From Nitrosospira sp. Nl5 (GTDB taxonomy: Bacteria; Pseudomonadota; Gammaproteobacteria; Burkholderiales; Nitrosomonadaceae), in contig NZ_FMVQ01000018.1 in the NCBI RefSeq assembly GCF_900102495.1, positions 1 through 46,041 on the forward strand: DNA of 46,041 nt. The letters are read 5' to 3'. The translations under genes and the position numbers were made by a program. The notes under the pieces are model-generated. The model did no database searches. It was not told where the DNA came from and saw only the letters and a list, made by a program, of their open reading frames with translations. Of the stretch, positions 25,631-40,931 are shown in pieces (position 1 is the stretch's first letter; each line of letters begins with the position of its first letter).

Positions 25631-25906
25631 CTATGCCTGTCCCTCATTCTTGGTGAGGGGTGCCGACATCTGATGTTTTTCAATGTAGGAAACGATATCT
25701 CCGACGCAGCGAAATCCTTTGGCTTCTTCCCCCTCAAAATTAATGCCAAAAGCATCTTCCGCATCAAACAAAAGCTGAATCGTATCCATAGAGTCAAGGC
25801 CGAGCTCGTCGAACTTTGACGATGCACTGATTGTGGAAGCATCCAGGTTTTCAACTTTCGTGGCGATAAATTGTATAACTTTTGTTTCGATATCTGCTGT
25901 ATCCAT
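25631..25906 (-). CDS. acyl carrier protein (dedicated paralogue)
   Basis: A 91-residue acyl carrier protein. The phosphopantetheine attachment serine is S39 in DELGLDSMD. The surrounding four-helix pattern and acidic helix II (FDAEDAFGINFEGEEA) are typical. I choose ATG 25906 because a good Shine-Dalgarno sequence (GGAAGGAG) sits just before it. An ATG at 25924 directly abuts the synthase stop but has no such site. It follows the ketoacyl synthase gene with no real gap, so the pair is an operon. It lies outside a fab cluster, which suggests a specialised pathway carrier, probably for the lipid genes to the right. Confidence 0.92.
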   Translation of the reverse strand: MDTADIETKVIQFIATKVENLDASTISASSKFDELGLDSMDTIQLLFDAEDAFGINFEGEEAKGFRCVGDIVSYIEKHQMSAPLTKNEGQA

Positions 25907-25924
25907 ATCATCTCCTTCCTTCAT

Positions 25925-27142
25925 TCAAGGGGTTGTGAAAACGATGCTTGCATTGTTGCCGCCAAATCCAAAAGCGTTACACAGGGCATTCCGTGGCTGC
26001 TTCTGCCGGGCGTGGTTTGGCGTGTAATCGAGATCACACTCCGGATCAGCCTCGTCAAGATTGATAGTGGGATGTATCGTGCCGGTATGCAGTGCCATGA
26101 TGGTGGCGATACTGCCGATTGCAGCCGACGCCCCGACCGTATGTCCGATCATTGACTTGGTGGCGTTGATTGCAATATCCCGAGCCCGGTCTCCAAAAAG
26201 AGCTTTAATAGCGCGAGTTTCCACGATATCACCAAGGGGAGTCGATGTTGCATGCGCATTGATGTGATCGATTGAATCCGGTTCCATCCCGGCATCGCGG
26301 ATGGCTGCATGCATCGCCGCTACCTGCCCATCCATGTCCGGCATGACGATATGTGTGGCGTCACATGTTTGTCCATAGCCAGCGAGCCGGGCATATATTT
26401 TCGCTCCGCGTTGTTTTGCCCCTTCTTCCTTCTCCAGGATAAGCATGCCCGCGCCTTCCGACATTACGAAGCCGTCGCGACCCTTGGCAAAAGGCCGCGA
26501 TGCCCGTGCTGGCTCAGTATTAAAGCTGGTGGTTAAAGCATGCAATGCTTCAAACCCAGTCATGGTCAGCGGCAATACGCATGCTTCCGCACCGCCGGCA
26601 ATCACGGCATCCGCTCTCCCTGCCCGCAAAAGGTCGAGCGCCATGCCGATCGCATTGGCTCCGGAAGAGCATGCGGTGCTGCAGGTCAGGTTCACCCCCT
26701 TCAGTCGATGTTTGATTGCTATCCAGGCCGCTGCGGAATTTGCCATCGTTCGAGGTACGGTGAAGGGAGGGATTGACTGATTCCGGAACTTGCGCGCGGC
26801 CGAGGACTCAAAGGTCGCAAATCCACCCATCCCCGATCCTATACTTACCGCCAAGCATTGCGGTGCGTACGCGTCGAGTCCACCCGCATCTTCAAGAGCG
26901 AGATGGGTAGCCAGCAGCGCTAGTTGTGTAAATCTATCCGTTTGGTCTATATATTTAGCCGACAAAAAGGTATTGGGATCAAATCCGGTAATCTCTCCCG
27001 CTATTTGGGAGCGCTGACTTGATGCATCAAAACATCTGATTTTTTGGATCCCGCTGATACCATTGATAGCCGCTGCCCAGAACTGGTCAGTGCCTGTGCC
27101 AATGGGAGAAACAACCCCCATTCCCGTGACAACTACCCGCAT
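25925..27142 (-). CDS. beta-ketoacyl-ACP synthase II-like (FabF family)
   Basis: A 405-residue condensing enzyme of the KAS II/FabF type, elongating acyl-ACP with malonyl-ACP. The catalytic triad is complete: C158 in CSTACSSGAN, H297 in INAHATSTPLGD and H334 in SMIGHTVGASA. It is encoded directly ahead of its own ACP gene and away from other fatty-acid genes. A pathway-specific synthase in a secondary lipid or polyketide-like system is therefore more likely than the housekeeping FabF. Nothing in the sequence gives its chain-length preference. Confidence 0.92.
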   Translation of the reverse strand: MRVVVTGMGVVSPIGTGTDQFWAAAINGISGIQKIRCFDASSQRSQIAGEITGFDPNTFLSAKYIDQTDRFTQLALLATHLALEDAGGLDAYAPQCLAVSIGSGMGGFATFESSAARKFRNQSIPPFTVPRTMANSAAAWIAIKHRLKGVNLTCSTACSSGANAIGMALDLLRAGRADAVIAGGAEACVLPLTMTGFEALHALTTSFNTEPARASRPFAKGRDGFVMSEGAGMLILEKEEGAKQRGAKIYARLAGYGQTCDATHIVMPDMDGQVAAMHAAIRDAGMEPDSIDHINAHATSTPLGDIVETRAIKALFGDRARDIAINATKSMIGHTVGASAAIGSIATIMALHTGTIHPTINLDEADPECDLDYTPNHARQKQPRNALCNAFGFGGNNASIVFTTP

Positions 27143-27296
27143 ACACAGTTAGGATTCATCATAAAGGATCGGAAGCACACTGGCAGGCATTCGCAATTCT
27201 TCGGAAAACCCGTACTAGGCATGGTCTATTAAGAACGACAAAGAAGTTGTTTGCTTTGTTTTCTCATCCTGTTTTGCCGGCCGTGAAAATCCTGAT

Positions 27297-27551
27297 TCAC
27301 TGGGCATTAAATATGACAGGAAACAGGTACTTCAATACCGCTCCCATGATCCAGATAATGAGTACTAAACTGGAGATCACGGCTACTCCTTCGGCAATCG
27401 CCGATATGAGTGTTGAACTGAGGCTGTCGAATTCCTGTTGCCCAGCCTCGTTACGGCGGCGGAGCCGACGTTGCCTCACCCACATTTGCAGCATGAAGAC
27501 GACCGGGATAAGGGCAAGAGAAATTAATAGGGAATATTCAGGACTGTCCAT
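27297..27551 (-). CDS. small two-helix membrane protein (hypothetical)
   Basis: An 84-residue protein with two predicted membrane helices, about 7-24 (LLISLALIPVVFMLQMW) and about 54-78 (VAVISSLVLIIWIMG). They are separated by a strongly basic loop rich in Arg (RQRRLRRRN). AAAAGG about nine bases before the ATG could be a ribosome-binding site. I do not recognise the family. It lies on the same strand as and 154 bases upstream of the ketoacyl synthase, so it could be co-transcribed with it. The hydrophobic pattern favours a real gene, but this is not proven. Confidence 0.5.
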   Translation of the reverse strand: MDSPEYSLLISLALIPVVFMLQMWVRQRRLRRRNEAGQQEFDSLSSTLISAIAEGVAVISSLVLIIWIMGAVLKYLFPVIFNAQ

Positions 27552-28331
27552 TAATAGTCAACCTTTTCTTTATAAAGTATCGCTAAGGAAATTTTAATTG
27601 CTGTTTTTGCCTTTCTTTTCGCCAGCGCATCTAGTCATGCTCAGCATTACCAGAACTGGATTAATCAGACAGCTGTCCAATTTGTGCCGCAATCCTGCAA
27701 CGAAAGCGCTCATTGCTTTCGACGGATAACTGGTATCTCCCGCTTCTAAAAGAAAACGTAAGTCTTCATTTGAAGAGTTGAGACGAGGAGCGCCAACGGG
27801 TATTGCTCTGTGTACTTTCCGTTCTGGCCAGCTACGCTCCGTTGTTACAATAAATGATATCTCAAATGCCAGAATGGTAAAATTGGCAATTATTTTATAA
27901 ATTATTGACACGAAATGACTACGGCAATGATATCGCTCGAAGCTTGCTTCCGTGTAACAATCGGGTTGCTGAGATACGCCTTATCGAAAACCGGCGATTA
28001 TACTATCACACGTCATCACGGTCATTGAATTTACCCACGTTTGCTAGCACCTGTACTTTGGCAAATGCTATCAGCAGAGCAAAAGGGTCGTCGACACGAA
28101 GTGCTTTATTTGCTTTAGTAATGGCTAAACCGCTGTCCGGGCAATATTAGCGTAATCGATTTCAAGCGATCCAGCTAGACAGGGGATGAGAGCATACCGG
28201 ATAAAACGCAAAGACGGCTAGCCATCACTGGTAATGGAGTCCTGACAGATCCCTTCCGATAGCGGGCCGGTTTTGCCCGGACACTATTTTTTCAAAAATA
28301 AAAATTCCAGCGCGGTTGCTCGCGTTTCCTG
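27552..28331. other. AT-rich divergent spacer left of the lipid operon
   Basis: A stretch of about 780 bases without a convincing gene. Two modest frames exist (105 codons at 27594-27911 minus, 81 codons at 27905-28150 plus). Neither has a recognisable motif, a good ribosome-binding site or neighbours that support it. A 43-codon minus-strand stretch near 28018-28146 reads like a protein fragment but lacks a start, so decayed coding sequence is possible. The right end should hold the promoter of the plus-strand lipid operon. An A/T run at 28288-28312 is the likeliest place. Confidence 0.45.
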
Positions 28332-29486
28332 ATGAATGATAAGTCTGATCAACCAATATCGACGGTAGTCACTCTGCACCCGGTCACGAATTTCCGTGAA
28401 ATGGGCGTCTTTATCGATATCCCGTGGCGGATCTATGCAGATGATCCGATGTGGATACCGCCGCTGCGCCTGGAGCGGCGCCTGCATTTTTCCAGATTTA
28501 ATCCATTCTTCAAGCACGGAGAATGGCAGGCATGGGTTGCTTACCGGAATAAGCAGCCGGTCGGAAGGATCAGTGCTCAAATTGATCAGCTGCACCGGCA
28601 ACGCTACGGTACGGATACCGGCCATTTTGGCTTGCTGGAATGCATAGATGACATTAAGGTACTCGCAACGCTTATCCATGCCGCCGAGGCGTGGCTGGCC
28701 GACCGGCATACCAGGTATGTCAGCGGGCCTTTCAACTTATCCATCAATCAGGAGTGCGGTATCCTGGTGGACGGTTTTGATACGCCGCCGATGGTGATGA
28801 TGCCCCATTCACGTAAATGGTATGGCCGGTTGCTCGAACAGCAAGGCTATCAGCCGCTGAAGGATCTACTTGCCTATTGGGTGGAGGTAGACTTTGAGAC
28901 CCCCCGGGTGATGAGTGTTCTACTCAAGAAATTTGCCGGCCAGGTACGGGTAAGGCGGCTAAGCCGCAACAAATTTGGCGAAGAGATGGAGATTCTGCGT
29001 GACATATTCAATGATGCCTGGTCGGAGAATTGGGGCTTCGTTCCTTTCACCGAGGCCGAGTTTGCCGAGCTTGGTACTAGCCTTCGTCTGCTCGTGCCCG
29101 ATGACTTTATCCAGATTGCCGAGGTTGATGGAATCCCGGCGGCATTTATGGTGGGATTGCCCAATCTCAATGAGATCTTCGCCGAGCTTAACGGCCGGCT
29201 ATTCCCATTTGGCTGGGTTCGCCTGGTGAGGCGCCTTAAGTCCAGGGGAGTTCGTACGGGGCGGATACCGTTGATGGGGGTACGCAAGCAATTCCAGAAT
29301 ACGCCGCTCGGTATAGCGCTGGCTTTCATGGTAATCGATGCCCCCCGGCAATTAGGGCTCTCACGAGGGGTCCGTGCAGTTGAATTGTCATGGATACTTG
29401 ACGATAACAAAGCAATGCGCGGAATTCTTGATAGTATAGGGTGCAGACAATACAAGCGCTATCGGATATATGGAAAAACGCTGTGA
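28332..29486 (+). CDS. GNAT-superfamily N-acyltransferase, bacterial ceramide-synthase-like
   Basis: A 384-residue cytosolic protein of a conserved family with a GNAT fold in its second half. Hallmarks are the N-terminal PWRIYADDPMWIPPLRLERR (31-50), QPVGRISAQID (75-85), GPFNLSINQECGILVDGF (132-149) and PPMVMMPHSRKWYGRLLE (152-169). As I recall, the Caulobacter ceramide synthase bCerS, which N-acylates a sphingoid amine, has this type of sequence. I could not compare them here. The neighbours (ACP, ketoacyl synthase, lipid kinase, CDP-alcohol transferase, LptFG) fit a lipid N- or O-acyltransferase. It is the first gene of the plus-strand run. Alternatively it acts on another amine. Family recognition is firmer than the function. 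Confidence 0.7.
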   Translation: MNDKSDQPISTVVTLHPVTNFREMGVFIDIPWRIYADDPMWIPPLRLERRLHFSRFNPFFKHGEWQAWVAYRNKQPVGRISAQIDQLHRQRYGTDTGHFGLLECIDDIKVLATLIHAAEAWLADRHTRYVSGPFNLSINQECGILVDGFDTPPMVMMPHSRKWYGRLLEQQGYQPLKDLLAYWVEVDFETPRVMSVLLKKFAGQVRVRRLSRNKFGEEMEILRDIFNDAWSENWGFVPFTEAEFAELGTSLRLLVPDDFIQIAEVDGIPAAFMVGLPNLNEIFAELNGRLFPFGWVRLVRRLKSRGVRTGRIPLMGVRKQFQNTPLGIALAFMVIDAPRQLGLSRGVRAVELSWILDDNKAMRGILDSIGCRQYKRYRIYGKTL

Positions 29487-29542
29487 CCTGTCCATTGGCA
29501 GACAGGATAACAACGACGATAAGGACAATGAGCCAAATTTGA

Positions 29543-30385
29543 ATGGATAAGACGAGTCAATTTACCGCCCTGGTGCTGGCGGCGGACCGTACAGCTAATG
29601 ACCCGGTTGCCGTGAAGACCGGTATGGCCTGCAAGGCGATTGCGCCGATCTGTGGAACGCCAATGATTATACGTGTTCTGGATGCGCTGGAAGCCAGCGG
29701 GATGGTTAAGACGATTGTAGTGTGCGGGCCACCCGAGTCCGCGCTTCCCGATTGCCCGGAGCTGGAAAAGCGGATCGAGTGCGGCCGTGTTACGTGGCTG
29801 CCGAATCTCGATTCCCCCAGTCGCAGTGCCAATAGCGGCCTCTCGCGCATTGATAAGAACGCTCCGGTATTACTGACGACGGCGGATCATGCGTTATTGA
29901 CGGCATCGATTGTGCAGTATTTTTTGTGCGAAACGCAAAAGGCAGACAGCGACGCCACAGTGGGGGTAGTTAAATATGAAGATGTCGCAGCGGCATTCCC
30001 CGGCGTAAAACGGACCGTAATACGGCTGCGCGATGGAGGTGTCTGCGGCTGCAATCTTTATGCATTTCTTAATAATCGCGGCCGCGGTCTGGTTTCGTTC
30101 TGGCAGCGCGCGGAAGAGTTGCGCAAACGTCCATGGCTATTGATTGCGCAGATATTTGGCCCGATGGCTGTTCTTTCCTATTTGCTTGGATCGCTGACAC
30201 TCGACCGGGCGCTCAATGCCGTCTCGGCCAAAACTGGTATCAGAGTGCAGCCGGTATTTCTGCCTTATCCCCAGGCAGGCGTTGATGTTGATAAGGTCGA
30301 GGATATGCTGCTGGTGGAATCCGTCCTGGCAGGAGTTGTGCCGCTTGCTCGCGAAGAAACGGATTTGCGCGACTTGCTCTCTTAG
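29543..30385 (+). CDS. MobA-like NTP transferase
   Basis: A 280-residue nucleotidyltransferase with a Rossmann-like GT-A fold. The start LVLAADRTANDPV (10-22) and the later CKAIAPICGTPMIIRVL form the nucleotide-binding signature. It is degenerate relative to the usual LAAGxGxR, since Gly is replaced by Asp-Arg. A metal-binding acidic position is visible in LLTTADHALL (about 108-117). A hydrophobic stretch near 194-215 may touch the membrane. Enzymes of this group activate phosphorylated alcohols as CDP derivatives, as in inositol-phosphate cytidylyltransferases. Here it probably activates the head group used by the CDP-alcohol phosphatidyltransferase downstream. The substrate is unknown. It starts 57 bases after the acyltransferase gene. 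Confidence 0.75.
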   Translation: MDKTSQFTALVLAADRTANDPVAVKTGMACKAIAPICGTPMIIRVLDALEASGMVKTIVVCGPPESALPDCPELEKRIECGRVTWLPNLDSPSRSANSGLSRIDKNAPVLLTTADHALLTASIVQYFLCETQKADSDATVGVVKYEDVAAAFPGVKRTVIRLRDGGVCGCNLYAFLNNRGRGLVSFWQRAEELRKRPWLLIAQIFGPMAVLSYLLGSLTLDRALNAVSAKTGIRVQPVFLPYPQAGVDVDKVEDMLLVESVLAGVVPLAREETDLRDLLS

Positions 30386-30425
30386 CGTAAAGATCGTCCC
30401 ATCATCAAGCCGCCAGGAAGAATCT

Positions 30426-31502
30426 GTGAAAATAATAGAACGATATATCACGCGTGAGTTATTGCTGCCGTTTATGGTGGTAATCGTTATCCTGGCGGCA
30501 TTGTTCTCGAGTTTTAGCAGCGCCCGCTTTCTGGCAGGGGCAGTCACAGAATCGCTTGGCATTGCCGCGATGCTGAAGCTCGTGTTGCTGAAAACTTTGA
30601 TTGCGCTGGAGGTGCTGATGCCGATCGCCCTCTATGTCGCTATCATCATAGGTCTTGGTCGATTGCACAGGGACCAGGAAATTAACGTATTACGTTCTGC
30701 CGGGGTCAGCGAACACCGCATCACCTATGCGGTGCTCATCGTTGCCATCCCCGTGGGCATTATCAGCGGTGTACTTTCTGTCTTCGCACGTCCGTGGGCC
30801 TATGAAGAAAGTTATATTCTGAATGCGCAGGCAGAAGCTGAATTAAATATGAATCGATTCCAGGCGGGGCGTTTCTATGGAAGCGAGGGCAGCGGCAGAG
30901 TGGTCTATATTCAAGACAAGGATAGCGCTGGCAAGCAGATGAAAGATGTGTTTCATTACATCAACAAAGGCGATAGCAGCGAGATCATTATCGCCAAGGA
31001 AGCTCACCAGCGGGAGCCGGTGGCCGCTGAACGCCCGCAAATACATTTACTTGATGGCGTTAGTTACCGGCTCATGCATTCCACAACGGGAGATACCGTT
31101 GTCCGGTTCGAAAAACTGATCTATTTCACCGATAGCGGCAACGCATTGGATTACAAACGCAAGGCGGCTGCTACCATGGACTTGGGAAGATCCGATCACC
31201 CACGTGACATTGCCGAATTCCAATGGCGGGTCTCACGTCCGATTGCTACGATTCTGCTGGCGCTAATCGCCGTGCCATTCAGCCGAGCTTCACCCCGCCA
31301 GGACAAGGGTGAGAAGACTTATTATGCCGCAGCCCTGGTTTTTGCGATCTATTATATCCTGAGCGGATTAGCCCAGACATGGGTGGAGCAAGGTACTGTC
31401 GGCAGAGTTCCTGGTGTCTGGTGGTTATATGTCTTGATGTTCATGGTCGCGATTAGCTTGTTGTCATCCGGTTTCTGGCAGAAACTATCCCGGCGTCCAT
31501 GA
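30426..31502 (+). CDS. lptF: LptF/YjgP-family permease (lipid exporter subunit)
   Basis: A membrane subunit of the LptB2FG type ABC exporter that extracts lipid from the inner membrane outer leaflet. I start it at GTG 30426, giving 358 residues, because GGAAG precedes that codon at good spacing and residue 1 begins the canonical KIIERYITRELL. The longer open frame starting at 30216 adds 70 residues read across the previous gene. Layout: three N-terminal membrane helices (about 13-33, 50-80, 98-120) with the coupling-helix motif INVLRSAGVS, a periplasmic beta-jellyroll (about 125-265), and three C-terminal helices. It overlaps the next gene by 4 nt. Its setting in a lipid cluster hints that the cargo may not be LPS. 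Confidence 0.88.
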   Translation: MKIIERYITRELLLPFMVVIVILAALFSSFSSARFLAGAVTESLGIAAMLKLVLLKTLIALEVLMPIALYVAIIIGLGRLHRDQEINVLRSAGVSEHRITYAVLIVAIPVGIISGVLSVFARPWAYEESYILNAQAEAELNMNRFQAGRFYGSEGSGRVVYIQDKDSAGKQMKDVFHYINKGDSSEIIIAKEAHQREPVAAERPQIHLLDGVSYRLMHSTTGDTVVRFEKLIYFTDSGNALDYKRKAAATMDLGRSDHPRDIAEFQWRVSRPIATILLALIAVPFSRASPRQDKGEKTYYAAALVFAIYYILSGLAQTWVEQGTVGRVPGVWWLYVLMFMVAISLLSSGFWQKLSRRP

Positions 31503-32563
31503 CGATAATTAACCGCTACCTTGCCCTGCAGGTTTTAATGGGGCTGGGCATCGCTACCGCGGTACTCTTGCCGTTATTCAGCTTTCTCGACTTGCTGGAT
31601 CAGCTTGACGATGTGGGAAAAGGGACTTATCGCATTCAGGATGCGTTCTTGCATACCGCACTACTGCTGCCACGCAGGTTTGTCCAACTTGCACCCTTTA
31701 TTGCGCTACTCGGCAATGTAGCGGCACTGGGACGATTGGCTGTTAATTCAGAGCTGACCGCATTACGGGTGGCGGGTGTTTCTCCAATTCGCATTAGCTT
31801 GGCCCCACTTGGGGTGGGACTGATTCTCTTATTGTTCATTGCTGTGCTGGAACAATTTATTGCTCCACAACTTCAGCAGAGAGCCATTTCGTCCCGCGCC
31901 GTCGCGCTTGACAAGAGCGCGACACTTGGCAAGCACCTGGGTATCTGGACCCGGGATGAACGGAATATCATACGTATCGGTGAAATGCTGCATGCAAAAA
32001 AGGCCGCAGATATAGAAGTCATGCATTTTGATGAGAACGGTCTCCTGCTGACCTATACCTATGCTAAATATGCTGATCTCATAGCAGATGATCTATGGAA
32101 ATTAAGTGATGTCATTACCAAGACCTTTACGGAAAAGCGCATCGAGTCCGTAAGTACAAGCTCGATGAATTGGAAATCATTTCTGAATCCAGACGATATT
32201 TCGACACTGACTAAGTCACCGGAGAGCCTTTCGCCCATTGAGTTGTTTTTGCATGTACGTTTCCTTCGCGCCACCGGTCAAGAGGCGGACGCCTATGCGC
32301 TGGCTTTATGGCGAAAGGTGGGGGGGGCGTTGACAACCATCGCGATGTTATTGCTTTCCATACCCTTTGTTTTCGGATCGGTACGGGCAGGACTTGGCAA
32401 TAAACTGGTACTTGCATCAATGCTCGGTATCAGCGTATATCTATTTGACCAGGTTATCGCAAATGCGGGCCTATTGCTGCATTTAAATCCTGCGTTAACC
32501 GCTCTTTTTCCCGGGCTACTGTTGATTGCGCTTGCTAATTTCTGGTTGCGGCGGGTTTTTTAG
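31499..32563 (+). CDS. lptG: LptG/YjgQ-family permease (lipid exporter subunit)
   Basis: The partner permease of LptF, 354 residues, translationally coupled to it through an ATGA overlap. The N terminus INRYLALQVLMGLGIATAVL is typical, followed by LLPRRFVQLAPFIALLGNVA and the coupling motif SELTALRVAGVSPIRI. A periplasmic beta-domain spans about 135-260 and three C-terminal helices follow. No ATPase (LptB) is encoded nearby, so the pair must borrow the cell's LptB if it is active. In betaproteobacteria the housekeeping lptFG pair usually sits beside pepA. It does not here, which suggests a second, specialised pair. Confidence 0.88.
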   Translation: MTIINRYLALQVLMGLGIATAVLLPLFSFLDLLDQLDDVGKGTYRIQDAFLHTALLLPRRFVQLAPFIALLGNVAALGRLAVNSELTALRVAGVSPIRISLAPLGVGLILLLFIAVLEQFIAPQLQQRAISSRAVALDKSATLGKHLGIWTRDERNIIRIGEMLHAKKAADIEVMHFDENGLLLTYTYAKYADLIADDLWKLSDVITKTFTEKRIESVSTSSMNWKSFLNPDDISTLTKSPESLSPIELFLHVRFLRATGQEADAYALALWRKVGGALTTIAMLLLSIPFVFGSVRAGLGNKLVLASMLGISVYLFDQVIANAGLLLHLNPALTALFPGLLLIALANFWLRRVF

Positions 32564-32629
32564 CCGCTTGCTTATTATTTCCCATTAGCGTAGAAGGATT
32601 CGGCGCTCGTTCCGGATAGCGGTATTGCC

Positions 32630-33976
32630 GTGGCAGTGATACGGCATATATTTCGATCTGTATGTCCCCGCATGACAACCAGCCACTACGAACATAGCAG
32701 GCCTTCCAATGATTTCAAATCCGGACACAGACAAACGACGCGGAATATCCAAGTGACAACCTACATTTATATCCTCGGAGATAGCGAGACGAACATCTGG
32801 GGCCTGAGCGGACGTAAGCGACTGCAACGGATGCTAGAGGCAATGGCGCAGACCAGGCTGGTGAATAGTCCCGAGCAGATTCCGGCGCACGCGCCAGCAT
32901 TATTTTTACGGGCTGACTATTTGTTCGATGCAAGGGTACTGGTGGCGCTGGTTAACACGCAAACGAACCTCGGGCTCAGCAGTGACGATGGCCAATTAGT
33001 CGCAATCCGGATTACGGATGGAGATAGAGCCCATGTGCTGGCGAATTTCATGGATGGGGGAAAGGGAGAGGCTTTCTCTGCCCTGCCTCGTTATACGCTA
33101 AAAGACTTGAGTCTGCTGGGCGTTCAACAAAATCTCAAGAAAAGAGATCTGCCCTACATATTGCTTATCAGCAGAGATAGCTGCCGGCGACTGGAGTGGG
33201 AATTATTTGCCCGATCATACAAAGGCGTGACCGATCTCGTGACAAAATGGCTCTGGCCCATACCCGCATTCTGGGCGGTACGCGCTTGTGTAGGCTGTGG
33301 TATACGGCCAAACCAGGTTACGCTGCTCAGCCTTGTGTTTGCGGTGCTGGCTGGGGTAGCCTTCTGGTATGGTCATTACGGGATGGGCCTGGTGGCGGGA
33401 TGGCTAATGACCTTCATGGATACGGTCGACGGAAAGTTGGCCCGAGTAACTGTCACCTCAAGCCGTTTTGGAGATGTGCTCGATCACGGCCTGGATATTA
33501 TTCATCCGCCACTATGGTATATGGCTTGGGGTGTAGGGCTGACAGTACCGGCATTAGTGAATGTATCCGACTTGCCGATGATATTCTGGCTGATACTTAT
33601 CGGCTACGTTGGCGGCAGATTGTGTGAAGGAGTTTTCCAGTTCTGGATCGCATCATTTGACATTTTTATCTGGCGTCCCCTGGATTCATTTAACCGGCTC
33701 GTTACCGCCCGGCGTAATCCTAACCTGATCCTGTTGACATTCGGCTGGCTTATAGCCAGACCGGACATCGGACTCTGGCTGGTAATTGTATGGCATCTGC
33801 TCTCAACCATCTTTCTTGCTATCCGGGTAATGATGGGTTGGCAAGCACGGCGATCCGAGGGGCCCCTACGATCATGGTTTGAGGAGATTGTTCCTGGGCG
33901 GGACGAAGGGAAACTGGCCGTTCGTATTTTTGCACCTTTAGCGATCAGGATAAATGATAGAAAATTCACGGATTGA
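32630..33976 (+). CDS. CDP-alcohol phosphatidyltransferase with extra N-terminal domain
   Basis: An integral membrane enzyme of about 448 residues that moves a phospho-alcohol from a CDP carrier to an acceptor. The CDP-alcohol signature is complete: D264, D267, G268, A271-R272, G281, D285 and D289, in DTVDGKLARV followed by FGDVLDHGLD. The preceding GCGIRPNQVTLLSLV marks the first helix. The N-terminal 200 residues look like a decayed GT-A nucleotidyltransferase domain (YIYILGDSETN, then LFLRADYLFDARVLVALVN). This resembles the fused cytidylyltransferase-phosphatidyltransferase enzymes of inositol-phosphate lipid pathways. The start is uncertain: GTG 32630, ATG 32672 or GTG 32753. It overlaps the kinase gene by 23 nt. 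Confidence 0.85.
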   Translation: MAVIRHIFRSVCPRMTTSHYEHSRPSNDFKSGHRQTTRNIQVTTYIYILGDSETNIWGLSGRKRLQRMLEAMAQTRLVNSPEQIPAHAPALFLRADYLFDARVLVALVNTQTNLGLSSDDGQLVAIRITDGDRAHVLANFMDGGKGEAFSALPRYTLKDLSLLGVQQNLKKRDLPYILLISRDSCRRLEWELFARSYKGVTDLVTKWLWPIPAFWAVRACVGCGIRPNQVTLLSLVFAVLAGVAFWYGHYGMGLVAGWLMTFMDTVDGKLARVTVTSSRFGDVLDHGLDIIHPPLWYMAWGVGLTVPALVNVSDLPMIFWLILIGYVGGRLCEGVFQFWIASFDIFIWRPLDSFNRLVTARRNPNLILLTFGWLIARPDIGLWLVIVWHLLSTIFLAIRVMMGWQARRSEGPLRSWFEEIVPGRDEGKLAVRIFAPLAIRINDRKFTD

Positions 33977-34952
33977 TAGATTGCGGTCTGGGGCGCCCGT
34001 GATCGGATTGCTTTTCAATCCTCTCAGCGGGCGTATTCGCAAGCGCAAGGATGCAATAAGGCGTGTACTTGCCGGGCTGCCGGGCGCAACCTGCAGTGAA
34101 GTAACGAATGCACCGGAGATTAAAGCTTCGGTGGATGCCTTTATACAGGCAGATATTGATTTGCTGGTAATTGTTGGCGGGGATGGTACCGTACAAGGCG
34201 TATTGTGTCACTTGTTTGCAACACAACCTCTCGCCAGGTGGCCTGTGCTAACTGTTGTCCCGGGTGGTACAACCAACATGACGGCGCTTGATCTGGGCAT
34301 CTGCGGTAAACCGGAATTTATCCTGCAGCAATTGAAGGGGTATCTGCTGAAGCAGATACCCCCCGTATTTTTACAGCGCCATGTGCTATGTATTGAACAA
34401 GCCGGGGCGGCAAAGGTTTACGGGATGTTTTTTGGTGTCGGATTTATTGCCCGCGCCGTGATATTTTCTCAGAGCAAGATAAAACAGCTGCGTATTACCG
34501 GAGAAATTTATTCGGGTATTATTACATTTGGCTACCTCGTCGGCTTGATTTTCGGGCGTCGGGACGGCGCATGGGCGCCCGTTCGTATGTCAATTATCGA
34601 GAGGAATACCGGAGTGCGTCATGGGACGTATGCGTTTCTTTTCGCCAGTACCCTGGATCGCCTGCTGTTTGGCATGCGTCCATACTGGGGACAGGAGAAG
34701 GAACCGCTGCATATAACATTCGTCCGGCAGAAACCGAAGCGTCCCTTACGCTCGTTATTGGCACTACTTACAGGCCACGCGGAAACCCTCAAAGAACAGG
34801 ACGGTTATCATAGCTGCAATACCGGAGCGCTGGAGCTGTTGATAGATGACGATTACATCGTCGACGGCGAATCCTACCGGGCGTCAAGCCAGGATGGGCC
34901 ATTGCGTATCACAGCAGCCGGTCCAATTATCTTTCTGGGAGCTGGTAGGTAA
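33954..34952 (+). CDS. diacylglycerol/sphingosine kinase family lipid kinase
   Basis: A 332-residue lipid kinase of the DAGK catalytic family (LCB5-like). Motifs in order: NPLSGRIRKR (22-31), the nucleotide-binding GGDGTVQG (75-82), PGGTTNMTA (103-111), and near the C terminus DDYIVDGESYRA with the conserved Asp-Gly-Glu. It would phosphorylate a membrane lipid hydroxyl, diacylglycerol or ceramide, on the cytoplasmic face. Overlap with the CDP-alcohol transferase gene upstream implies coupled production. The ceramide kinase of the Caulobacter ceramide-phosphoglycerate pathway belongs to this broad family. Which lipid is used here cannot be read from the sequence. Confidence 0.85.
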   Translation: MIENSRIDRLRSGAPVIGLLFNPLSGRIRKRKDAIRRVLAGLPGATCSEVTNAPEIKASVDAFIQADIDLLVIVGGDGTVQGVLCHLFATQPLARWPVLTVVPGGTTNMTALDLGICGKPEFILQQLKGYLLKQIPPVFLQRHVLCIEQAGAAKVYGMFFGVGFIARAVIFSQSKIKQLRITGEIYSGIITFGYLVGLIFGRRDGAWAPVRMSIIERNTGVRHGTYAFLFASTLDRLLFGMRPYWGQEKEPLHITFVRQKPKRPLRSLLALLTGHAETLKEQDGYHSCNTGALELLIDDDYIVDGESYRASSQDGPLRITAAGPIIFLGAGR

Positions 34953-34962
34953 GCACATAGTC

Positions 34963-35946
34963 ATGACAAACCATGCCTCAACATTTGATCAACACATCCC
35001 CAGCGGCTTGGTCGCTGAGATTGCTGCGCTGAGTTCAAGGCCGGTGTCTGAGGATTTTCTGGTTCTGGTTGAAGCATTGAAATTACGCTTCGGCTCATCG
35101 CTGGAGGCCGTTCTTCTTTATGGATCCTGTCTGCGCTCTCACGAGATCGGTGATGGAGTGGTAGATTTTTACGCTATCGTGAACAGCTACAGTAGAGCTT
35201 ACCCGGAGCGCTATCTTGGTTACCTTAATGCGTGGCTGGCGCCAAATGTGTTTTATCTTGAAGTATCCCCGGAGGAAAATAACCAGGAAAAAAAGTTCCG
35301 CGCCAAATACGCCGTAGTCTCAATGGCAGACTTTGCGCAGGGAACCCGGCGCTGGTTCCACCCGTATCTATGGGCACGCTTTGCTCAACCTTCCCGGTTG
35401 CTTTACGCGCGGGACGAGACCGTCCGCAAGTATATTTACAATGCGCTGGCACACGCGGTAGTGACATTTCTCAGGTCCAGCCTTCCCATGCTGAACGCGT
35501 TCGTGGTGGATGCCGAAGCAATCTGGATCAATGGCTTGACGCAGACCTATGCGGCCGAACTGCGGCCCGAACGTGCAACGCGGGCGCAACAGCTTGCTCA
35601 GATCAATCTGGATGATTACACACGGTTGACCGAGCATGCTATGCCTGCCTTGGCAGGAATGCTGGAGATGCTGCCCGACGGACGCTATCGGTGCCTGACC
35701 GACGTGTCGGACCGTCGGCGAGCGAGGCTGCGCTGGCGATTACGGCGCTGGCAGGGAACAGTCCTGTCTGTGCTACGGCTGACAAAAGCGGCATTCACCT
35801 TCAGCGACAGCATCAGTTATGCCGCCTGGAAGATCGAACGCCATACTGGCGTACGCGTTGAGGTGACGCCCATGCTGCGGCGACATCCGGTGCTATGGGG
35901 TTTTAAAGTTTCTTGGCAGCTGTTGCGCCGTGGCGTAATGCGCTGA
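34963..35946 (+). CDS. Tam41-like phosphatidate cytidylyltransferase
   Basis: A 327-residue protein resembling Tam41, the mitochondrial CDP-diacylglycerol synthase that uses CTP and phosphatidic acid. Visible correspondences are LLYGSCLRS (52-60, the nucleotidyltransferase Gly-Ser), VVDFYAIVN (66-74, metal Asp), AKYAVVSMADF (114-124), YLWARFAQPSRLLYARDE (135-152) and a C-terminal RLTKAAFTF, which parallels the TKGIFTAG region of Tam41. No membrane helix is evident, as in Tam41. The ATG at 34963 is favoured because the longer frame runs through the kinase gene. It starts 10 bases after the kinase, whose phosphorylated product it could activate to a CDP-lipid. The family call rests on remembered motif similarity. 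Confidence 0.65.
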   Translation: MTNHASTFDQHIPSGLVAEIAALSSRPVSEDFLVLVEALKLRFGSSLEAVLLYGSCLRSHEIGDGVVDFYAIVNSYSRAYPERYLGYLNAWLAPNVFYLEVSPEENNQEKKFRAKYAVVSMADFAQGTRRWFHPYLWARFAQPSRLLYARDETVRKYIYNALAHAVVTFLRSSLPMLNAFVVDAEAIWINGLTQTYAAELRPERATRAQQLAQINLDDYTRLTEHAMPALAGMLEMLPDGRYRCLTDVSDRRRARLRWRLRRWQGTVLSVLRLTKAAFTFSDSISYAAWKIERHTGVRVEVTPMLRRHPVLWGFKVSWQLLRRGVMR

Positions 35947-36088: not shown

Positions 36089-38023
36089 TTAAGGATCTTT
36101 ACCCAAGTACCCCTGTGCAATGCGGTAATACACCCGCCGCAGCGGATTGCCATCGCGCGTGGCTACCTGTTCCCGTATCGGGCCGGGTTGCACCAGCATC
36201 CGGTCGATGTCATGAATTCTTCGGGTGCGTGCGACCTCATGCTTCCTCATGCCCACCAGGATGATTGGCCGGGACGTGGGTGGTTCCGATGGATACCAGA
36301 AGTCATACATGGCAGCCGTGTCGCCAAATAAATTGCGCGAGCGTATCTCCATCGGTTCACGGCGGTTGTAAAAGGACAAGGCGGCAGCTACCGACCATTT
36401 ACTCATGCCTACCACAATGGGTTCTTGCCCGGTCCGTTGTCGAACCTCCGCTACCACCTGCTCGATTTCGCTTGTGGCCTCGCGCCAGAAATAGTGTTCC
36501 GACAAAAATTTATATGGGATGCCGGGGATGCCGAGCACTACATAGTGCAGTACGAATGCGTAGAGAAAGATGCAAACTGCAATGGTGGGTTTCCAGGCCG
36601 CTCTCACACGGCGTGCCAGGGTGCCGAAATCACCTGCCTGGCCCATCAGCCACGCCACTGTCGGCAGCAGTGCAAGCCATGCAGGCCCAGTCCAGTGAAA
36701 CCGCTGTGACTCGGAAATACTGAGAACGAAGAACACTGCCAGCGGCACGCCGGCGAACACCCGTACGAATAGGCGCCGCCTGCGCGCATAAGCACTGTCG
36801 TCACGTTCGGCACCCGGCCACATCGCCATGACTGCGGCAAGCAAGCCCACCGGCGTCAACAGGACCATAAGATGAAGAAATAACTGGTGCACCGCGAATT
36901 GATCCTCATCCCCTCCCTTGACCCGGTTTGACTGAAACATAATCGACGCCCAGTTGTTTTCCATATTCCAGATGATAACGGGGGAAAACAACAGCAGGGC
37001 AAGTGTGGCGGCGAGATATGCATGCGGACGGCGCAGCCAGCGGCGGGAGGCGGGGTCCAGGATCACAAACAACAGCGCCGCCGGTCCCAGCAGGCCCAGC
37101 GTATACTTGGAAAGGATGCCCAGGCCGAATGCGATACCCATTCCCGCCCAGGCCGAACGTTGATCAGCGATTAATGCCCGTTCCATGTAATACAGCGTTG
37201 CAGCCCAAGCGGCTACCAGCGGCGCATCCGTGGTCATCACCATGCCGGTGGAAAAATAAAACGGTAGTACGGCCAGCAGCAGCACTGCGCGCATGCCGGT
37301 CGTCTTGTCATACAGGTTGCATGCCAGCGCGTACAGGTAGCCCATCGTTATCAGGCCGCAAATGAAAGCGCCGATGCGAACGCCGAACTCCGTATTGCCG
37401 AAGATCGCGGTGCCCAGCCAGATCAGCCATGCCACCATCGGTGGGTGATCGTAGAAACTCAGTTCCATGTGCTGGGCATAATTCCAGTAGTAGGCCTCAT
37501 CGGGAATCAGCTGCGCCTGGCCGAGGTAAATCAGGCGCAGCAGCACCGCAAATGTCACGATGCCGAGAGAGGCGACCCGCCAGCGCACATCTGCCGACGG
37601 CGGATTCTGCTTGCCAGGGAATACGTAGAAGGCGGAGCCGAGATAGCTGATGGCGACCGTGGCGGCAATAGCGGGAAATATGGCCAAGGAAGGGGACAGA
37701 TGCCAGTCATAAACCAGCAAGGCCAGCACGCCGCCGCGCATGAACAAGGCGAATATGCTCATTGTCAGGAAACGGCCTAGTTGACGCCACCGTAGATAGT
37801 CTACATGGGGGGGCACCCTCGAATTAAGCCAGTAATTCACTGTGGCGCCGGCGCAGAAGCTCATGATGTGCGCCAGCGCGAGTCCCGCGCCACGGCTCAT
37901 GAGCCACTGGAACAGCAGGACGTCGATGACCATGCCACACAGGGCGAGCGCAGCAAACCGGCGGGTGGTGCTGAAGGAAGCCGTGCCGCCGGCCAACGTG
38001 ATCACGCGTTGCAGATAATCCAT
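36089..38023 (-). CDS. GtrA-GT39 fusion glycosyltransferase
   Basis: A 644-residue integral membrane protein that fuses two families. Residues 1-135 form a GtrA-like four-helix domain (CGMVIDVLLFQWLM, then SFCAGATVNYWLNSRV), usually a separate flippase-like helper for polyprenyl-linked sugars. From about 150 on it is a GT39/ArnT-like glycosyltransferase with the catalytic-loop signature IPDEAYYWNYA (D175, E176) and FYDHPPMVAWLIWLG, many membrane helices and a C-terminal periplasmic part. It would move a sugar from a polyprenyl phosphate donor to a lipid or glycan in the periplasm. It converges on the lipid operon with a 142-base gap and could decorate that lipid or LPS. Confidence 0.88.
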   Translation of the reverse strand: MDYLQRVITLAGGTASFSTTRRFAALALCGMVIDVLLFQWLMSRGAGLALAHIMSFCAGATVNYWLNSRVPPHVDYLRWRQLGRFLTMSIFALFMRGGVLALLVYDWHLSPSLAIFPAIAATVAISYLGSAFYVFPGKQNPPSADVRWRVASLGIVTFAVLLRLIYLGQAQLIPDEAYYWNYAQHMELSFYDHPPMVAWLIWLGTAIFGNTEFGVRIGAFICGLITMGYLYALACNLYDKTTGMRAVLLLAVLPFYFSTGMVMTTDAPLVAAWAATLYYMERALIADQRSAWAGMGIAFGLGILSKYTLGLLGPAALLFVILDPASRRWLRRPHAYLAATLALLLFSPVIIWNMENNWASIMFQSNRVKGGDEDQFAVHQLFLHLMVLLTPVGLLAAVMAMWPGAERDDSAYARRRRLFVRVFAGVPLAVFFVLSISESQRFHWTGPAWLALLPTVAWLMGQAGDFGTLARRVRAAWKPTIAVCIFLYAFVLHYVVLGIPGIPYKFLSEHYFWREATSEIEQVVAEVRQRTGQEPIVVGMSKWSVAAALSFYNRREPMEIRSRNLFGDTAAMYDFWYPSEPPTSRPIILVGMRKHEVARTRRIHDIDRMLVQPGPIREQVATRDGNPLRRVYYRIAQGYLGKDP

Positions 38024-38422
38024 TATTAGCGGAACGATAGCTTGGAAACGTCGCGAGAGCAGATAGGCATCTCTATCATCTTGAGAGCCGGCAAGGGGCC
38101 TACATTGTCTGCTTCGTTAAGTTCGGGAATTACAACGCAGAATTGGGTCAAGGATACCTCTAAAAATCAAGCAACAAATCTAGATGACAGCATGATGCAG
38201 GATGAAATGCCGCATGCCTTGTTTCACACTTTAAGCACGAACATTTCGTTCGCCTGTTTCCAGGAAAAAGCTTGCTGGCACAATTCAAATTCTTGACGAA
38301 CAAGGCTGAGCGGCCCCAGGCCGTTGAAGCTTTACCGGGGATTCAATTCGGCGCCCGATAGCTTTCAACGATTACCAGTTACCGGGAAAGTCTTGGAGCC
38401 ATGGATAAGCTTGTGCTGAATG
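38024..38422. other. spacer between gpmA-like and GT39 genes
   Basis: A stretch of about 400 bases holding no gene I can support. An 84-codon plus-strand frame (38042-38296) has no motif and an unlikely composition. The left end should contain the promoter of the minus-strand glycosyltransferase gene. Confidence 0.4.
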
Positions 38423-39133
38423 TTACTGTATGGGCTGATCAGCATAGTAATGCTGAACAGGGCCCAGTTTATCGTTAAGGTCGTATACCAGCGGACGCCC
38501 TGTGGCGATGGACAATTTCATTAGCTGGGAAACGGATAATCCATCCAGCTGCATCATCAATGAACGCAAGACGTGCCGGTGAGATACCACGAGAATCCGT
38601 TTTCCACGCTGGATCTCGGGCACGATTGTTTCCTGCCAATAGGGTAGGACCCGGAAGAAAGTCTGCTGCATGCTCTCCGCAAGCGGCAATTCTTTCTTGT
38701 CGATGTCCGAGTAGCGGAGCTGATTCCCGGGGCAACGTGCATCGCCGGGGCGGAGCGGGGGGGGGAATGTAGTAAACCGTAACTGGGGGCCAAGGACGGG
38801 CCATATGCCAAATTTCCCGATAGCATTAATACGGTGTACTCCCTCCAGCGCCCCGTAATGGCGCTCATTCAAGCGCCAACTCTGCCGTGTGGCCAGTCCG
38901 TTAAGTCCCATCGCCGACAATACAATACGCAGCGTGTCAGTGGCTCGCCTAAGTTCCGAAGTAAAACACATGTCGAACTCGCAACCTGCCTCCTTGAGCA
39001 GGCGGCCAGCCCGCTCCGCCTCCTGTTCACCGCGATGACTCAACGCAACATCGTTCCAGCCGGTAAAATACCCATCCCGGTTCGAAATACTTTCCCCATG
39101 TCGTAACAGAACAAGTTGCGTCATTGTTGGCAT
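38423..39133 (-). CDS. 2,3-bisphosphoglycerate-dependent phosphoglycerate mutase-like protein
   Basis: A 236-residue histidine-phosphatase-superfamily protein closest to GpmA. The core is present: [18 protein letters not shown] (H12 is the phosphohistidine), [21 protein letters not shown] (E90) and a second His, H185. Two regions deviate. The usual lid and substrate segment with paired Arg (WRRSYD or similar) is replaced around residues 108-125 by [14 protein letters not shown], and the normal HGNSLRAL reads HRHVLRSL. The C-terminal TGRPLVYDL and HYYADQ are normal. It may be an active but altered mutase, a phosphatase or a paralogue with another substrate. I withhold the gpmA symbol for that reason. 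Confidence 0.8.
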
Positions 39134-39320
39134 TTCCTAAAAAATCATATAGCTGATGGTTAACCGGCTTCGCACTGCAAACCCGGGCGGCGTGAAATAT
39201 TCATAAATCCAGAAACCGTAAACCCAGGCTCGTCCTCTCTCCGCCATAGCAACCCGCCTTGCCTGAAACATCGCTGTTCTCAATTTTCCTTACCTTCCCC
39301 CGATTACGAAGGCGCGATGC

Positions 39321-39779
39321 TTATGCCCAGCAGGGTAATATGTAATCGATGATTTGCTGGTTAGTTCTTGCATCGGTTTCGGTTGGCCGGTGGAAGTCAG
39401 GCGCCCCCGGCCAACCGAAGTCGATAAACTCCAGACCATTAAAATACTTTGCCTTTGCGTACCGCGGAATAATATGGAAGTGTACGTCCGGGTCAACCAT
39501 CATTAGCATCAGATAATTAAGCTTATCGTAATTAAATGCCTTTGCTAAAGCAGATTCCAGCTGTGCTGTTATTTTGTGAAGCTCGGTAAAGCTCGCTTCA
39601 CTCAGTTTAGAGAATTCTTGAGCTGGCTCACGAGCTGCCAGAACCAGAGAACCAAGCGTTAACTGGACTGGGCGGAGCATGAGAGTCCAGTATTGATATT
39701 GTTGAATTATTGTTTGTGGCGCCCCAAACTTTCGCATTGTTGCGTTAAAGATTGGTGCATCCGGCGGAGAACTGATCAT
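39321..39779 (-). CDS. HIT-family hydrolase or nucleotidyl transferase
   Basis: A 152-residue histidine-triad protein. The triad region reads PDVHFHIIPRY. The central catalytic His and the third His are kept, while the first His of the HxHxH pattern is Asp. As I recall, this variant defines a subfamily found in many proteobacteria. QLTLGSLVLAARE near residue 40 is the matching substrate-side strand. HIT proteins split dinucleoside polyphosphates or nucleoside phosphoramidates, and some transfer nucleotides. An internal ATG at residue 15 is an alternative start. It stands alone between two gaps, on the strand of the glycan genes. Confidence 0.82.
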   Translation of the reverse strand: MISSPPDAPIFNATMRKFGAPQTIIQQYQYWTLMLRPVQLTLGSLVLAAREPAQEFSKLSEASFTELHKITAQLESALAKAFNYDKLNYLMLMMVDPDVHFHIIPRYAKAKYFNGLEFIDFGWPGAPDFHRPTETDARTNQQIIDYILPCWA

Positions 39780-40160
39780 TCAAGAACCATGTATTGTTTC
39801 CCGCAGATGCATTTCGCCCAGGGAATATTCAAATCAAATTTACGAATTATCGTATCCTGCCTCCAGGGTACGATGTGCGCATGATCTCCCGCACAATTCC
39901 TCGCATTATACATTGCAAGGGGCTCGGAAGACACGGCCGATGATATGAGCGGCACGTGTTCAGAGCGCCGAAAGTGCGCGTATCAATTGACATCGTGATA
40001 ACGCCTCATCAAGGGACAGACATTGGACGGGCGGTTATGTCCTGCGTCAAGTGGGCAAGCACAAGCATGGGTTCTGCTCGCAAGTCTGCAACGAAGCAGG
40101 GCTATATTCATCTTTTATTTAACCCCCCATCGAATAAACCTCCCATCGGTGGGAAGATGG
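39780..40160. other. spacer upstream of the HIT gene
   Basis: A stretch of 381 bases without a supportable gene. Plus-strand frames of 78 and 83 codons overlap one another and resemble nothing. A small hairpin, CCCATCGGTGGG, lies at about 40142-40153 close to the end of the next minus-strand gene, but lacks a U-run. Confidence 0.4.
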
Positions 40161-40931
40161 CTATGCAATTTCATCTTGATCTATTTTGCTGAAGAGTGCC
40201 TCAGCCTTTACCAGATCCGCGGCAAAATCAATTTCACACCAGAAATGCCCGGACACAGAATACGCATTCACTAATTGTTTGCCGGCCAGCGCATCCACGA
40301 TGGCGAGATACCACCATTTAAGCTTTTCCTGGTGACGGAGTGCATCCTCGACCGCCGTGCGGAAAAGTTGCGGCCCGCGCTCCCGAAAAAAAATAAGACC
40401 GATGGATTCGCAGTCGATTTGATCGGCGGTTAAGTTCTTACTCACGTGCTTGACCCATCCATTCTCATCCAGCTGAACCTTCATGTCGTCCGCATCGTAG
40501 ATGGGTTTGGAACTCACGGTGAGGGTAATGGGTGCGGCGCCCGAGTTCAACAGTTGTATCAGTAACGCTTTATCAAAAATGGTATCTCCATTCAGGAGCA
40601 GAAAGTCGCGATCCATCGCGGAACGTGCAATCCAGCAACTGGCCAGATTATCCGCAACCTCGAAGAACGGATTAAAGATTGTATTGATCCGTGCCCGATT
40701 CGCATAGCTTTGCAACAGAGACTCGACCAGGCTGGATTTGAAGCCCGTGACCACAGTGATATCATGAATCCCGGCAGCGAGTAATGCCTCAATCTGCCAA
40801 GCAATAATTGGTTTGCCTGCTATCGGTAACAGGCACTTCGGCATGTTTTCAGTTAGCGACAGTAGCCGTCGTCCCTGTCCAGCGCTGAGGATGATCGCTT
40901 TGATAGCGCTTTTTTCTTTGCCACAGGTCAT
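40161..40931 (-). CDS. LicC-like sugar/alcohol-phosphate nucleotidyltransferase
   Basis: A 256-residue GT-A-fold nucleotidyltransferase. The N-terminal signature AIILSAGQGRRLLSLTENMPKCLLPIAGKPII (about 11-42) contains the nucleotide-binding GQGRR and catalytic Lys. LLLNGDTIFD (about 115) supplies the metal Asp, and GHFWCEIDFAADLVKAE near the C terminus the second. The short length and the phrases DNLASCWIA and HFWCEID are reminiscent of phosphocholine cytidylyltransferases (LicC) and related enzymes that activate small alcohol phosphates rather than hexoses. It is separated by 295 bases from the ulosonate-type operon and on the same strand, so it probably serves the same surface polymer. The substrate is not determined. 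Confidence 0.85.
   Translation of the reverse strand: MTCGKEKSAIKAIILSAGQGRRLLSLTENMPKCLLPIAGKPIIAWQIEALLAAGIHDITVVTGFKSSLVESLLQSYANRARINTIFNPFFEVADNLASCWIARSAMDRDFLLLNGDTIFDKALLIQLLNSGAAPITLTVSSKPIYDADDMKVQLDENGWVKHVSKNLTADQIDCESIGLIFFRERGPQLFRTAVEDALRHQEKLKWWYLAIVDALAGKQLVNAYSVSGHFWCEIDFAADLVKAEALFSKIDQDEIA

Follow-up and report, generated by a model that had tools for sequence, protein, structure and literature searches.

The 46,041-nucleotide stretch of Nitrosospira sp. Nl5 analysed here (contig NZ_FMVQ01000018.1, positions 1 to 46,041; hereafter the window) carries a core block of seven plus-strand genes at 28332-35946, namely cerS, a homolog of Caulobacter CC_1153, lptF, lptG, cpgA, cpgB and cpgC, separated in this order by gaps of 56, 40, -4, 66, -23 and 10 bp. 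Convergent to this block lie genes for a PMT/GtrA glycosyltransferase, a phosphoglycerate mutase and a HIT protein, together with cpgD (36089-40931). From the sequence evidence we consider it likely that the block supplies head-group synthesis and export, one half of a pathway of the type that makes ceramide phosphoglycerate (CPG) and its form with a second phosphoglycerate (CPG2), here in a bacterium without lipid A, and that the product exported by LptF-LptG replaces lipopolysaccharide (LPS). An initial annotation, confined to 25631-35946, had proposed a candidate system that makes and exports an unusual phospholipid, possibly a phosphosphingolipid; the phosphosphingolipid reading is now well supported by homologs of the Caulobacter CPG genes and by a ceramide module in the same genome, and all nine genes that it named are present, as judged by family cut-offs, identity with Caulobacter vibrioides and Tam41 signals. 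Its span was too short, because cpgD (40161-40931) falls outside it.

The genes are listed below. Percentages are identities in a BLAST comparison of the proteins of the window and of its own genome with the reference locus of C. vibrioides DSM 9893 (L181); designations in G and L denote the comparison genomes and loci of this analysis. Domain calls follow the NCBIfam equivalog and Pfam cut-offs, with E 0.01 as the criterion for no match.

28332..29486, plus strand: cerS, ceramide synthase (bCerS/CC_1154 homolog), 384 amino acids; 45% to C. vibrioides, E 4e-100
29543..30385, plus strand: MobA/CofC-like nucleotidyltransferase, CC_1153 homolog; PF12804 above cut-off; 35% to C. vibrioides, E 2e-37
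30426 (about)..31502, plus strand: lptF, exporter permease; TIGR04407 above cut-off
31499..32563, plus strand: lptG, exporter permease; TIGR04408 above cut-off; 23% to C. vibrioides, E 7e-14
32630..33976, plus strand: cpgA, cytidine diphosphate (CDP)-alcohol phosphatidyltransferase with an N-terminal extra part; 38%, E 5e-73; true start probably further in
33954..34952, plus strand: cpgB, ceramide kinase (DAGK/LCB5 type); 29%, E 2e-20; GGDG motif
34963..35946, plus strand: cpgC, Tam41-like cytidine triphosphate (CTP) transferase, proposed CDP-ceramide synthase; 36%, E 1e-33
36089..38023, minus strand: PMT-type glycosyltransferase with GtrA domain; PMT_2 and GtrA above cut-off
38423..39133, minus strand: 2,3-bisphosphoglycerate-dependent phosphoglycerate mutase; TIGR01258 249.6 bits against a cut-off of 81.7
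39321..39779, minus strand: HIT-family protein, homolog of the gene at the Caulobacter CC_1157 position; HIT domain above cut-off; 47% to L181 6483-6830
40161..40931, minus strand: cpgD, CTP:phosphoglycerate cytidylyltransferase; E 6.2e-77 against a three-row CpgD profile; 43% to L181
25631..27142, minus strand: acyl carrier protein and FabF, neighbours rather than core; FabF above the NCBIfam cut-off

Among the window proteins, the Pfam cut-offs were passed by CDP-OH_P_transf, DAGK_cat, NTP_transf_3 and PP-binding and the NCBIfam equivalog cut-offs by FabF, LptF and LptG; the first window scans gave no Pfam or NCBIfam match at E 0.01 for CerS or CpgC. The bCerS-like acyltransferase of the initial annotation was rightly named, since it shares 45% of its residues with the protein that occupies the cerS position in C. 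vibrioides, and cerS is a single-copy gene in its genome. CpgA carries a complete DxxDGxxAR-x8-GxxxDxxxD motif, which we take to be that of the CDP-alcohol phosphatidyltransferases. Because homologs align from 34963, cpgC starts there and not at 34846; hence, of the overlaps claimed for the right-hand half of the block, those of lptF with lptG (4 bp) and of cpgA with cpgB (23 bp) stand, but cpgB and cpgC do not overlap.

Homology to the Caulobacter pathway

The genes needed for CPG and CPG2 in Caulobacter have been mapped in the cluster CC_1152-CC_1168 (PMC11324152), so that the earlier statement that no described system has this gene set does not hold. The gene set itself is already known, from Caulobacter and from Nitrosomonas eutropha, for which the same paper gives at least 13 orthologs in three genome regions. 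Ten proteins of the window and its genome match the C. vibrioides locus (CpgA, CpgB, CpgC, CerS, the CC_1153-like protein, LptG, Spt, AcpR, CerR and AasR), and CpgD is the eleventh; also shared are the HIT gene, which in C. vibrioides takes the place of CC_1157, and, by family and position only, LptF. The ceramide module aasR-cerR-acpR-spt lies on another contig of the genome (C34; locus L058, 8288-12586), with identities to C. vibrioides of 41% for AasR, 35% for CerR, 38% for AcpR and 51% for Spt. The initial annotation had suggested a search for serine palmitoyltransferase, and the enzyme is encoded in this separate module, scoring 594.9 bits with NF047599 against a curated cut-off of 500. 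In CpgD, nine of the 11 published active-site residues are identical, and the cytosine contacts Thr88 and Thr93 are replaced by Ala and Ser (residues according to PMC12275187 and PMC13228409). Both the genes cpgB and cpgC, required for CPG, and the genes cpgA and cpgD, required for CPG2, are present in the window.

The Caulobacter system differs from this one in several respects. Caulobacter possesses LPS together with a second LptFG pair (PMC11324152), whereas here LpxB and LpxC are missing and the pair is the only one; a mutase gene and a PMT glycosyltransferase gene lie near cpgD in the window, and neither has a match in the C. vibrioides locus. N. eutropha shares the pathway genes, with aasR (Neut_0458), acpR (Neut_0460) and spt (Neut_0461) placed as on contig C34 (PMC11324152; PMC9386255), and lacks orthologs of CC_1158, CC_1166, CC_1167 and CC_1168 (PMC11324152). 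A gene for an MsbA-like ATP-binding cassette (ABC) transporter directly follows spt in the window's genome (L058 12669-14414); it scores under the MsbA cut-off and is a candidate ceramide-lipid flippase.

We propose a pathway in which ceramide would be provided by AasR, CerR, AcpR and Spt from the other contig and by CerS from the window. CpgB would phosphorylate ceramide to ceramide-1-phosphate, and the Tam41-like CpgC would combine this with CTP to give CDP-ceramide, the source of the first phosphoglycerate head group. CpgD would convert 2-phosphoglycerate to CDP-glycerate, CpgA would add the second phosphoglycerate unit where cpgA and cpgD are both present, and LptF-LptG, the sole pair of the genome, would carry the finished lipid to the outer membrane as a stand-in for LPS. 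The predicted order of acylation, phosphorylation, CTP activation, head-group transfer and export by LptFG was already given in the initial annotation and is well supported at the level of sequence comparison. The kinase activity of CpgB (PMC10331486) and the activity of CpgD, which makes CDP-glycerate (PMC12275187), have been shown in Caulobacter, where genetics shows that cpgC is needed for CPG and where LptF2/G2 were proposed as exporters, as an untested suggestion (PMC11324152). The CDP-ceramide step, the cargo of LptFG and the replacement of LPS are what we infer.

Conservation of the block

The block was compared across 37 genomes of the Nitrosomonadaceae, including the window's own (four genera; G002, G028, G032 and G035 are less than 90% complete), 24 genomes of the order, one each from 24 other families, and 398 genomes drawn evenly from the phylum. 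Within the stretches fetched around the block in all 37 family genomes, each of cerS, lptG, cpgB and the CC_1153-like gene occurs in 37 and lptF and cpgC in 36, so the co-occurrence that the initial annotation wished to see examined extends through the family, with four exceptions. In G002 the block genes are split over two contigs; in G004 lptF lies outside the block, on another contig, beside an ABC transporter of the MsbA-like kind (L137 4874-7847); in G025 a distance of about 10 kb separates the cerS-to-lptG part from the cpgB-cpgC part of the same contig, and the identity of cpgB falls to 41%; and in G034 a contig break cuts cpgC, which was detected by the genome-level cpgC search. By that search cpgC is present in 37 of 37 family genomes versus none of the 24 from other families of the order. 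The phylum draw gave 27 genomes with cpgC, two of them from the window's family, and neighbourhoods were fetched for 20 of the 25 others: cpgB adjoins cpgC in 19, Spt lies in the same stretch in 13 (one weak, 32%), cerS in 11, a CC_1153-like gene in nine and an LptF and LptG pair in 16. This gene arrangement is far beyond chance.

The genes for acyl carrier protein and FabF were considered as pathway members and rejected, as in the fetched stretches they adjoin the block in all 22 genomes of the window's genus that could be assessed, but in none of the 13 assessable ones from the other three genera. The acyl supply that the initial annotation had assigned to them is accordingly not upheld; they are genus-only neighbours, and a specialised AcpR is encoded beside spt on another contig. 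An open reading frame of 84 amino acids (27297-27551), divergent from cerS and without a Pfam match, is conserved in the fetched stretches of 31 of the 37 family genomes.

A single LptF-LptG pair in a family without LpxC and LpxB

LptF and LptG of the window are the only two PF03739 (LptF_LptG) proteins of their genome, and two such proteins were found in 60 of the 61 genomes of the relatives set, with three in G021. LpxC was found in none of the 37 family genomes, and LpxB over the cut-off in none of the 37 (G030 has a sub-threshold partial match) versus 24 of the 24 genomes from other families of the order. These absences agree with the counts in PMC3087551, which gives only lpxK for Nitrosomonas europaea and only lpxA for Nitrosospira multiformis among the lipid A genes and speaks of genome reduction. 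Because the single LptFG pair lies in a lipid operon and LpxC and LpxB are missing, the cargo of the family's exporter is probably the sphingolipid, and it is probably this sphingolipid that coats the outer membrane in place of LPS. In G021, the third LptF-type gene lies beside an MsbA-like ABC transporter and cpgA (L138 7192-12648).

Outside the family, LptFG and LpxC were tallied in 14 of the 25 genomes with cpgC. Eight have two LptF_LptG proteins and no LpxC, and six have four or five together with LpxC, a split of 1 in 3003 if the genomes were independent, which they are not. Such a pattern is expected if LPS and the sphingolipid each have an LptFG pair of their own. The eight genomes with cpgC, a single LptFG pair and no LpxC are represented by loci L117-L123 and L125; LPS may have been lost repeatedly in bacteria that carry a sphingolipid cluster. 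G173, from the same class as the window, encodes LpxC and has two LptFG pairs in separate settings: a housekeeping one next to pepA (L175) and another within a sphingolipid cluster (L174), which comprises lptF-lptG, cpgD, CC_1153-like gene, cerS, aasR, cerR, acpR and spt; its cpgC is on another contig (L124), where no cpgB match was found.

The Tam41 likeness of CpgC

PF09139 (Tam41) is the only recurrent Pfam match of CpgC and was obtained with all 23 of the family members that were scanned (best E 2.7e-5), and Tam41 came first in a profile search of solved structures (E 0.1). An AlphaFold model of CpgC has a predicted local distance difference test score (pLDDT) of 81.3 and a predicted template modelling score (pTM) of 0.82. 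With this model, Foldseek ranks 1-5 were all Tam41, with E 2e-7 to 5e-7 and template modelling (TM) scores of 0.45-0.57, followed by other nucleotidyltransferases from E 1e-4. The weak and consistent PF09139 match and the structural hits bear out the Tam41-like identity first given to the last protein of the block. CpgC appears to have its fold and CTP-transferase core in common with Tam41, the mitochondrial and bacterial CDP-diacylglycerol synthase, and differs in its expected substrate, which would be ceramide-1-phosphate. Most likely, judging from the model, CpgC transfers cytidine monophosphate from CTP, and from gene linkage and Caulobacter genetics we infer that the acceptor would be ceramide-1-phosphate. 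Activation of ceramide-1-phosphate by CC_1161 (CpgC) was suggested in PMC11324152, given its CDP-diacylglycerol synthase domain, and the mechanism of CpgC is called unidentified in PMC12275187 and PMC13228409.

Joint presence of cpgA and cpgD

cpgA (E < 1e-140) was found in 25 of the 37 family genomes and cpgD (E < 1e-70) in the same 25; neither was found in the other 12 (G015, G017-G020, G022, G023, G025, G026, G029, G032 and G035), two of which are less than 90% complete. This joint presence and absence agrees with a need for both genes in adding the second phosphoglycerate. Six of the 25 cpgA matches run over stops, with open frames of 407-422 amino acids, and the stops may precede the true start. 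On a tree of four block genes, which is not an independent species tree and does not distinguish gain from loss, the cpgA/cpgD states change six times, five of these changes being forced by well-supported branches. A paired test gave five supported pairs and p 0.0625, with the identical states entered as one vector twice. In seven genomes of other families, weak cpgA matches cover the CDP-alcohol domain only. A second, more distant CpgA-like protein (28%; L120 15596-16675) is encoded in the sphingolipid cluster of G068 and is possibly another head-group transferase.

The genes around cpgD are themselves partly linked. cpgD-HIT-mutase-PMT-cpgA forms a separate module in G001, G013 and G016 (L287, L288, L289); G001 also has a cpgD copy in two pieces near the block (L042 14580-15304), besides the full-length cpgD match in the relocated module (L288 7046-7810). 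Surroundings were compared in 18 of the 25 cpgD genomes, whereas in the remainder coverage reached some 1.5 kb to each side of cpgD; a HIT gene lies near cpgD in 14 of the 18 and the mutase in eight, these eight all being of the window's genus. It speaks against a general link to cpgD that neither was found in the 16-kb cluster of G173 and no mutase in the C. vibrioides locus. The Caulobacter homolog of the HIT protein (47%; L181 6483-6830) lies between cpgA and lptF2, in the place of CC_1157.

Phosphoglycerate mutase interconverts 3- and 2-phosphoglycerate. The mutase is a candidate supplier of 2-phosphoglycerate for CpgD and may equally be an ordinary glycolytic enzyme; together with the HIT protein it is a candidate for the missing parts of the CPG2 pathway. 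A dedicated phosphoglycerate supplier was speculated on in PMC12275187, and CC_1157 was called probably unrelated to the pathway in PMC11324152. The joint presence and absence of cpgA and cpgD and the link of HIT and mutase to cpgD were not seen in the papers found, among which no search aimed at HIT or mutase was made.

Alternative explanations

Several observations weigh against the proposed pathway and its export, as do the topology tests described in the next paragraph. LptF has no better-than-chance BLAST match in L181, and the searches for lipid A and Lpt genes covered LpxC, LpxB, LptF and LptG only. The window's CpgC reaches 14 bits with PF09139, below the cut-off of 24, none of six more distant CpgC members (alignment A2) matches this family, and the relation of CpgC to Tam41 is remote (12-15% identity, TM about 0.5). 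The enzyme that joins glycerate to activated ceramide is called unknown in PMC11324152. All 12 genomes without cpgA and cpgD retain the CC_1153-like gene; this does not fit the Caulobacter phenotype, in which loss of CC_1153 removes CPG2 and not CPG (PMC11324152).

LptF and LptG might instead be normal exporters of LPS that happen to be encoded in this operon, with a diverged lipid A pathway and a sphingolipid that travels by another route, which we consider unlikely. The two proteins pass the LptF and LptG equivalog cut-offs, and trees place the family's LptFG in the beta/gamma lineage, away from the cluster pairs of alphaproteobacterial type. The approximately unbiased (AU) test did not reject sisterhood with the housekeeping pairs of the order (p 0.48 for LptF and 0.38 for LptG; 0.54 and 0.51 once G173's housekeeping row was included), and joining the family with the alphaproteobacterial-type cluster pairs gave 0.038 for LptF and 0.105 and 0.088 for LptG. 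The best trees, in which several rows are long-branched, nevertheless join the family pair with the sphingolipid-cluster pair of G173, with Shimodaira-Hasegawa-like approximate likelihood ratio test (SH-aLRT) values of 99 for LptF and 92 for LptG. First trees without the true housekeeping pair of G173 had favoured retained housekeeping genes; with L175 added, the family pair joins the cluster pair. Rows came from 18-19 of the 24 other order genomes, with repeated loci removed and about half of the family rows left out; in the later trees the long-branched L168 was left out and L154 was entered as the G173 cluster pair. Furthermore, the housekeeping pair lies beside pepA in all four outside-family loci examined (three order members and G173) and not in a lipid operon, whereas the window's pair lies in a sphingolipid operon, and the absence of LpxC, and of LpxB over the cut-off, holds in every family genome. 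The reading of LptFG as mere housekeeping genes was dropped since both Lpx proteins are missing.

Alternatively, the product could be an unusual glycerophospholipid, with the kinase acting on diacylglycerol, the Tam41-like protein making CDP-diacylglycerol, CpgA adding the head group and the acyltransferase serving another purpose. Caulobacter CpgB does phosphorylate diacylglycerol in vitro with an activity comparable to that on ceramide (PMC10331486), Tam41 makes CDP-diacylglycerol, and CpgA matches the families of phosphatidylinositol-phosphate synthases, although with scores far below the cut-offs. Against this stand the complete ceramide module in the same genome, the position of cpgC beside cpgB in 19 and near Spt in 13 of the 20 outside-family loci, and the report that cpgB deletion in Caulobacter leaves phosphatidate unchanged (PMC10331486). 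An inositol lipid, as the likeness of CpgA would suggest, was rejected because no myo-inositol-phosphate synthase (PF07994) was found in the window's genome. We regard a glycerophospholipid product as rather improbable. Finally, each of these lipid-gene families is common on its own, but a chance neighbourhood of unrelated genes is hardly credible and is refuted by their staying together, apart from the exceptions given above, across 37 family genomes of four genera and their re-association in other groups.

Implications for the Nitrosomonadaceae

The reading of the block as the head-group and export half of a CPG/CPG2-type pathway gains interest from its setting. The accessible text of PMC11324152 and PMC9386255 does not mention, for N. 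eutropha, that lipid A is lost or that there is just one LptFG pair, and in the open-licence PubMed Central literature, judged by titles and the starts of abstracts, none of the matches listed connects sphingolipids and a lone LptFG pair with the loss of lipid A in ammonia oxidisers. The absence of LpxC and LpxB and the sole LptFG pair within the operon make the block more interesting than one more set of orthologs. LPS-free Caulobacter is reportedly the subject of work by Zik et al. in 2022. In LPS-free Caulobacter mutants, sphingolipid synthesis becomes essential (PMC10331486).

A wider scenario, which to us could as easily prove wrong as right, is that the ammonia-oxidising Nitrosomonadaceae as a family gave up lipid A and build their outer leaflet of ceramide-phosphoglycerates. 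The Lpt bridge would then be sphingolipid-only, recruited separately from the alphaproteobacterial LptF2G2, and the family would be divided into CPG2 makers and CPG-only makers by five or six changes, for which the simplest account is that cpgA and cpgD were lost jointly. The proposed reaction of CpgC would be CDP-ceramide synthesis, as already suggested in PMC11324152. The LPS-free state of the Caulobacter mutants seems to have been made permanent by evolution in a family of environmentally important bacteria, and the ability of the Lpt machine to carry sphingolipids could be tested in this natural setting. The ceramide-phosphoglycerate pathway proposed here is a possible answer to the question of what replaces LPS in Nitrosomonas and Nitrosospira, for each of which a single lipid A gene has been noted (PMC3087551).

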